Shown here: positions 33,906-34,254 of the stretch, piece after piece | Layout of the letters: every line of letters starts with the position of its first letter | Numbering within the stretch: the first letter of the stretch is position 1 | From: a bacterium | Lineage (GTDB): Bacteria; UBP14; UBA6098; B30-G16 | DNA: 34,254 bases | Assembly: GCA_021159335.1 (NCBI GenBank) | Contig: JAGGRZ010000026.1 | Span: 1 to 34,254 of the forward strand | Direction: 5' to 3' | The notes under the pieces: generated by a model | The model's database searches: none | Seen by the model: only the letters and a program-made list of their open reading frames with translations | Told to the model about the DNA's origin: nothing | Program-made: the position numbers and the translations under genes

Positions 33906-33957
33906 AAAAAAATTTTCCCAAAAAACCAGAAAATTCTTGCGCAGCGTTCCAAAACAT

Positions 33958-33973
33958 CCCTTATTAATAAGGG
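33958..33973 (+). other. Perfect 16-bp palindrome between tRNA-Arg and the CRISPR leader
   Basis: CCCTTATTAATAAGGG is a perfect palindrome about 50 nt after the tRNA. It could fold to a 5-bp stem with a 6-nt loop. It may be a weak tRNA terminator or a protein site at the leader boundary. There is no U-tract, so neither role is certain. Confidence 0.4.
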
Positions 33974-34178
33974 TCTTTGAAAATTTAACATTCAAAAAAT
34001 TTCCGGTGGCTTTGTGTCTCAGAAAGTATGGGGGTTACGGAATTTTTGTAACTTGTTGCAGGACAAGATGTTAGGTGTTCTTGTGATTTTTCCCAAGCGG
34101 ATTTTTCCCGCTTATTTTTGGGGATACTGAAAAACGGCTTTGTAAATTGTTGGTATTCAGGGGTTTACGGGTTCAAGG
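33974..34178 (+). promoter_or_regulatory. CRISPR leader
   Basis: This non-coding stretch of about 200 bp directly precedes the putative first CRISPR repeat. It begins with TCTTTGAAAATTTAAC, like the TCTTTGACAA-type motifs found upstream of many arrays. It contains short G/C runs separated by T runs (CCCAAGCGG, CCCGC, TTTTTGGGG), a hairpin at 34095-34113, and ends in GGGTTTACGGGTTCAAG next to the repeat. No open reading frame fits it. The assignment rests on general resemblance to leaders and on the adjoining repeat. Confidence 0.55.
34095..34113 (+). repeat. Inverted repeat in the CRISPR leader
   Basis: AAGCGG (34095-34100) and CCGCTT (34108-34113) form a perfect 6-bp stem with a 7-nt T-rich loop. 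CCC just before it and GGGG a few bases after it could extend the pairing. It could mark the array promoter or an adaptation site within the leader. Confidence 0.45.
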
Positions 34179-34254
34179 GTTTCAAACCTATCCTCGGCTA
34201 ATAGGGGATTGCGACCCCACATTGTTTTTCCACCGGGGAAATTTGCTGAACCGT
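34179..34254 (+). CRISPR. Start of a CRISPR array: first repeat and partial first spacer
   Basis: The putative 37-nt repeat occupies 34179-34215. It starts GTTTCAAACC and ends GGGGATTGCGAC, which fits the GTTTC/GTTGC start and GATTG(A/C)-AC end of many type I and III repeats. CCTAT (34187-34191) and ATAGG (34201-34205) can form the usual short internal stem. The remaining 39 nt (34216-34254) would be the first spacer, cut by the window edge. Only one repeat copy is visible, so periodicity cannot be tested here, and no cas genes are present in the window. Confidence 0.6.

Follow-up and report, generated by a model that had tools for sequence, protein, structure and literature searches.

Leader end of an assembly-broken CRISPR array, probably serving a type III complex, at the edge of a bacterial contig

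The window (the whole stretch of DNA analysed, 34,254 nt) is the whole of contig C26 and ends where that contig ends (34254); its right edge is interpreted as the start of a CRISPR array broken by the assembly (leader, first repeat and an incomplete first spacer), the crRNAs of which probably go to a type III complex. That the 37-nt unit found there is part of a real CRISPR array is near-certain, and the array is ordinary CRISPR biology in kind. In the source genome (2.06 Mb in 170 contigs, rated 98% complete), assembly breaks interrupt each of the two CRISPR arrays as well as the type III operon, and contig-by-contig annotation would miss them. Feature coordinates are collected in Table 1.

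The unit GTTTCAAACCTATCCTCGGCTAATAGGGGATTGCGAC was found exactly where the original prediction had placed it, next to a tRNA-Arg gene (anticodon TCG) that ends 273 nt before the unit starts, with 39 nt remaining to the window end. In an ORF scan, no ORF of more than 66 aa overlapped 33906-34254, which agrees with the proposal that no protein gene explains this region, and an Rfam search of the window gave the tRNA as its sole match. The DNA between the tRNA gene and the unit has no other copy in the genome except one 34-nt match (82% identity, E 0.05). A second copy of the unit is absent from the window, where the next-best 37-nt stretch matches at 22/37 positions, and the exact 37-mer had 0 matches in genome_contigs; with a single unit present, the window alone is therefore no proof of an array.

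Table 1. Coordinates of the array features, the window genes and the cas genes of the same genome.
Feature	Contig	Position	Strand	Remarks
tRNA-Arg	C26	33832-33905		anticodon TCG
Leader-like stretch (putative leader)	C26	33906..34178	+	between tRNA-Arg and first repeat; free of ORFs >66 aa
CRISPR repeat, leader-proximal copy, 37 nt	C26	34179..34215	+	35, 35 and 34/37 identical to the three full C157 copies
Hairpin TCCTC, loop GGCTAATA, GGGGA within repeat	C26	34191..34208	+	formed by all full copies in the genome
First spacer, cut by contig end, 39 nt present	C26	34216..34254	+	unique in the genome
Secreted-looking protein, 3185 aa	C26	19133-28690	-	very large
Secreted-looking protein, 1550 aa	C26	14319-18971	-	very large
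cas6, 320 aa	C157	11235-12197	-	1.4 kb past the last repeat
Four small ORFs (89-155 aa)	C157	12142-13536		between array and cas6
Type I-A-like locus	C164	2916-11060		complete

Further copies were found when the genome was searched for the unit with up to 3 mismatches, which recovered one copy on C26 and three on contig C157 (reversed control pattern, 0), and a search with the 25-nt 3' block added a fourth C157 copy whose last bases are decayed. On C157, successive copies begin at intervals of 80, 85 and 79 nt and are separated by unique spacers of 43, 48 and 42 nt, similar in length to the contig-cut 39 nt of the window. Regular, near-identical repeats are present genome-wide (one on C26, three full and one decayed on C157), not in the window alone, and their 79-85-nt spacing bears out the earlier suggestion that a CRISPR array starts at the window edge. 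The copies begin 4 nt from the end of C157, which also breaks inside the array. Since the decayed copy marks a trailer end and the leader-like stretch lies on the side opposite to it, the window holds the leader side, and C157 most likely carries the trailer side of the same array; that C26 and C157 belong to one array is what we infer from these ends.

A cas6 gene follows the last C157 repeat. Its product matches PF10040 (E 5.7e-18) and the PADLOC Cas6 model (E 1.2e-88), scores below cut-off with the NCBIfam Cas6 model (E 6.9e-11, 43 bits, cut-off 58.65 bits) and has one weak Cas6 match in the PDB by sequence (E 0.0082). Cas genes near the array had been anticipated as a possibility; on C157, its probable continuation, cas6 lies 1.4 kb from the repeats. 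The four small ORFs between array and cas6, some membrane-like by eye, matched nothing in Pfam or NCBIfam at E 0.01. Relatives of this Cas6 were found in 7/61 genomes, the source genome included, and their context was inspected in five of the six others (G032 left out; G046 at one of four places). A Cas6 of this family heads an operon of Cas10-Csm2-Csm3-Csm4-Csm5, plus Cas1, in G028, a CARF-RelE gene occurs in the context of the G022 relative, the G005 relative is a fragment at a contig end, and those of G042 and G046 (one place) had no cas neighbour by eye. A 20-mer scan found no array in these five stretches, which leaves Spirochaetes SKW14 (described below) and the source genome as the basis for linking the repeat to this Cas6 family.

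Evidence for a type III effector was found on a third contig, C117, which is without a physical link to the array. The right end of C117 encodes the C-terminal 64 residues of a Cmr6 (E 4.3e-25), followed by Csx3 (E 2.4e-38) and by a Csx1 of the CARF-HEPN type (E 8.4e-108); these genes form the final part of a type III-B operon that is truncated where the contig stops, and they supply both a CARF effector and a cyclic-oligoadenylate accessory gene. Those 64 C-terminal residues are all that was seen of the Cmr1-Cmr6 set, the remainder being beyond the contig end or missing, and the PF03787 model found no other RAMP protein in the assembly. The Cmr2 model for Cas10 gave 0 matches in the assembly, in which the C117 operon is cut, and the Csm1 model gave one match below cut-off, to a protein that reads by eye like RNase Y.

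The original prediction had described a 37-nt repeat with an internal CCTAT/ATAGG stem. The repeat is real; the stem occurs only in the C26 copy and is lost on C157, where the 5' arm reads CTTTC or TTTTC. A different stem, TCCTC and GGGGA around an 8-nt loop, is possible in all four full copies of this genome and in the copies of G001, and in Spirochaetota A05DMB-I-13, as on SKW14 contigs L019 and L020, the arms of the repeat stem are CCCC and GGGG around a 7-nt loop. The minimum free energy structure of the window copy agrees with TCCTC/GGGGA, at a stability not above that of shuffled sequences (z -0.74; -0.7 to -2.1 across five repeats of this class). As predicted energies are unexceptional and stability alone proves little, it is conservation that supports the stem. 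The last eight repeat bases, after the conserved stem, are ATTGCGAC. Cas6 cutting at the base of a stem leaves the bases beyond it as crRNA tag, and the likely candidate site here is the 3' base of the hairpin, which would leave ATTGCGAC. A literature search for Cas6 with ATTGCGAC found none.

Spacers were compared with viral_contigs by means of six exact seeds from four spacers, of which two matched and four did not; a reversed control seed (n=1) and the 3' block of the repeat each gave 0 matches there, and two 20-22-nt seeds from the first (window) spacer had no exact viral match. Spacer S2 matches IMGVR_UViG_3300005098_000009 at 44/48 positions and S3 matches IMGVR_UViG_3300021472_000014 at 41/42, so that 2/4 spacers match phage contigs and the array links these uncultured phages to an uncultured host lineage. 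Genes for a large terminase subunit and for a DnaC-like helicase loader occur on both phage contigs, and IMGVR_UViG_3300021472_000014 additionally encodes portal and major head proteins. The S2 target falls within a 93-aa ORF that is read from the other strand, and the S3 target (1743-1784 of L041) lies opposite to overlapping replication-initiation and helicase-loader ORFs. Both spacers are antisense to their target genes, and the two crRNAs would thus base-pair with transcripts, which is what type III requires; two of two in this orientation would occur 1 in 4 times by chance, which makes this weak evidence. The repeat tag matches the target flanks at 2/8 and 0/8 positions, and the targets would therefore not be taken for self.

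Separately from the array, similar secreted-looking proteins are encoded in both spacer-matched phage contigs (L040 3372-4076, L041 3496-4218). Their C-termini resemble, by eye, the sorting tails of the host's large proteins. In the two very large window proteins the C-terminal parts likewise look, on inspection by eye, like sorting domains of the gliding or FlgD type.

The single copy in the window would fit a chance look-alike within non-coding DNA, a reading that is refuted by the regularly spaced C157 copies near cas6, which the reversed control pattern did not reproduce, and by the phage matches of the C157 spacers; its probability is negligible. Another alternative is that the C26 unit and the C157 array are two separate arrays with nearly the same repeat, in a genome with more than one type III array. 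No overlap joins the two contigs, 2-3 mismatches in the 5' half separate the C26 copy from those of C157, and Table 1 of PMC10989782 lists seven arrays of Thermus thermophilus HB27 that share a single type III repeat. Against this, just one leader end and just one trailer end were found in the genome, the other array of which is likewise split between contigs (C164 and C28), so that separate arrays are considered unlikely. If the two contigs met within a single spacer, that spacer would have 39 + 4 = 43 nt, a length in line with the others; this agreement may be chance.

The crRNAs of the array could instead serve the type I-A-like complex encoded on C164, not a type III complex. That locus (Cas6, Cas3 helicase, Cas3 HD, a Cas8a/Cas11 protein, Cas7, Cas5, Cas4-Cas1 and Cas2) is the sole effector set assembled in full, no Cas1 was found in the genome outside it, and neither Cas10 model, Cmr2 or Csm1, identified a Cas10 in the assembly. 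However, its 18 mutually identical repeats (GTAAGACC...GAATTGAAAG; three on C164, 15 on C28) are unlike the window repeat, and the locus encodes a Cas6 of its own that resembles the C157 protein only weakly (23% over 200 residues); assignment of the window array to this locus is accordingly regarded as improbable. The C164 locus contains a Cas4-Cas1 fusion, and the C-terminal part of its Cas8a matches Cas11 models. A candidate leader motif common to both arrays (score 39) was not relied on: this score was reached by 3/500 shuffled pairs and by 1/249 forward window slices, that one not separated from the leader itself, and one of 249 reverse-strand slices scored 42.

A type III complex, a type that the original prediction did not name, is thus the preferred, and probable, reader of the array. 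The C157 cas6, the C117 fragment, the Csm neighbour in SKW14, the Thermus repeat end and the antisense phage matches make it likely; the counter-points are that Cas10 was not found, C117 is unlinked, the Cas6 match is below cut-off and the hairpin is no stabler than shuffled sequences. Pairing of the array with the type III-B operon of C117 in particular is reasonably probable. The array would probably be transcribed rightwards, and the C157 Cas6 would probably cut the transcript at the base of the TCCTC/GGGGA hairpin, leaving ATTGCGAC as a 5' tag. The crRNAs would most likely be loaded into a type III complex, probably III-B (Cmr), of which only the end of Cmr6 is assembled. By what is general for the Csx1 and Csx3 families, cyclic-oligoadenylate signalling to Csx1 would next be triggered by phage RNA and probably be turned off again by Csx3.

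Five stretches of genome_contigs contain the repeat's 18-nt 3' block: three are contigs of Spirochaetes SKW14, a fourth, with 18 copies, comes from Spirochaetota A05DMB-I-13, and the fifth is QNEG01000209.1; a pattern search matched 2/98 genomes, the source genome and G001. QNEG01000209.1 (C209 of G001, bacterium isolate B30_G16, same family) likewise has a 37-nt repeat, identical to the window repeat in 25/25 3' bases (three copies) or 24/25 (five copies) and different in the 12 nt at its 5' end, and its array is alike in spacing (74-84 nt) and in a ninth, terminal repeat with a decayed 3' end. No cas gene was noticed by eye in the ORF list of this 4.3-kb contig. In the A05DMB-I-13 array (L021 43-1380) a block of spacers is present at least two times in the same order, as a real duplication or an assembly loop. 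The single match on SKW14 contig L018 has a different 5' half and is possibly not functional as a repeat. On L019 of SKW14, a contig-end repeat is followed by Csm5, Csm4, Csm3, Csm2, Cas10 and Cas6 in that order; this type III-A locus shares the 3' block CTAATAGGGGATTGCGAC with the window repeat, and its Cas6 is of the same family as that of C157 (35% identical), whereas its repeat is 35 nt long with another 5' half and adjoins a Csm operon, the Cmr6 of the source genome being on a separate contig. One could speculate, with considerable doubt, that a hairpin-plus-tag repeat (the CTAATAGGGGATTGCGAC end with one Cas6 family) has been traded between III-A and III-B effectors across distant lineages, and that the type III array here needs the co-resident type I-A-like adaptation genes for new spacers.

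Among known systems, the III-A/III-B repeat of T. thermophilus HB27 listed in Table 1 of PMC10989782 agrees with the window repeat in its last 12 bases, GGGGATTGCGAC, and ahead of these a C-rich arm allows a possible hairpin CCCC GTAA GGGG; it is 36 nt long versus 37 nt for the window repeat and differs in its 5' half and loop. In the same table the I-B and I-C repeats of T. thermophilus end in GATTGAAAC, and a similar repeat is given for Thermus sp. CCB_US3_UF1 in PMC4599208. Sharing of such a repeat by III-A and III-B is thus already published; the Thermus repeat listed there is common to both complexes, whereas in the source genome a III-B fragment alone is seen and no Cas10 is assembled.
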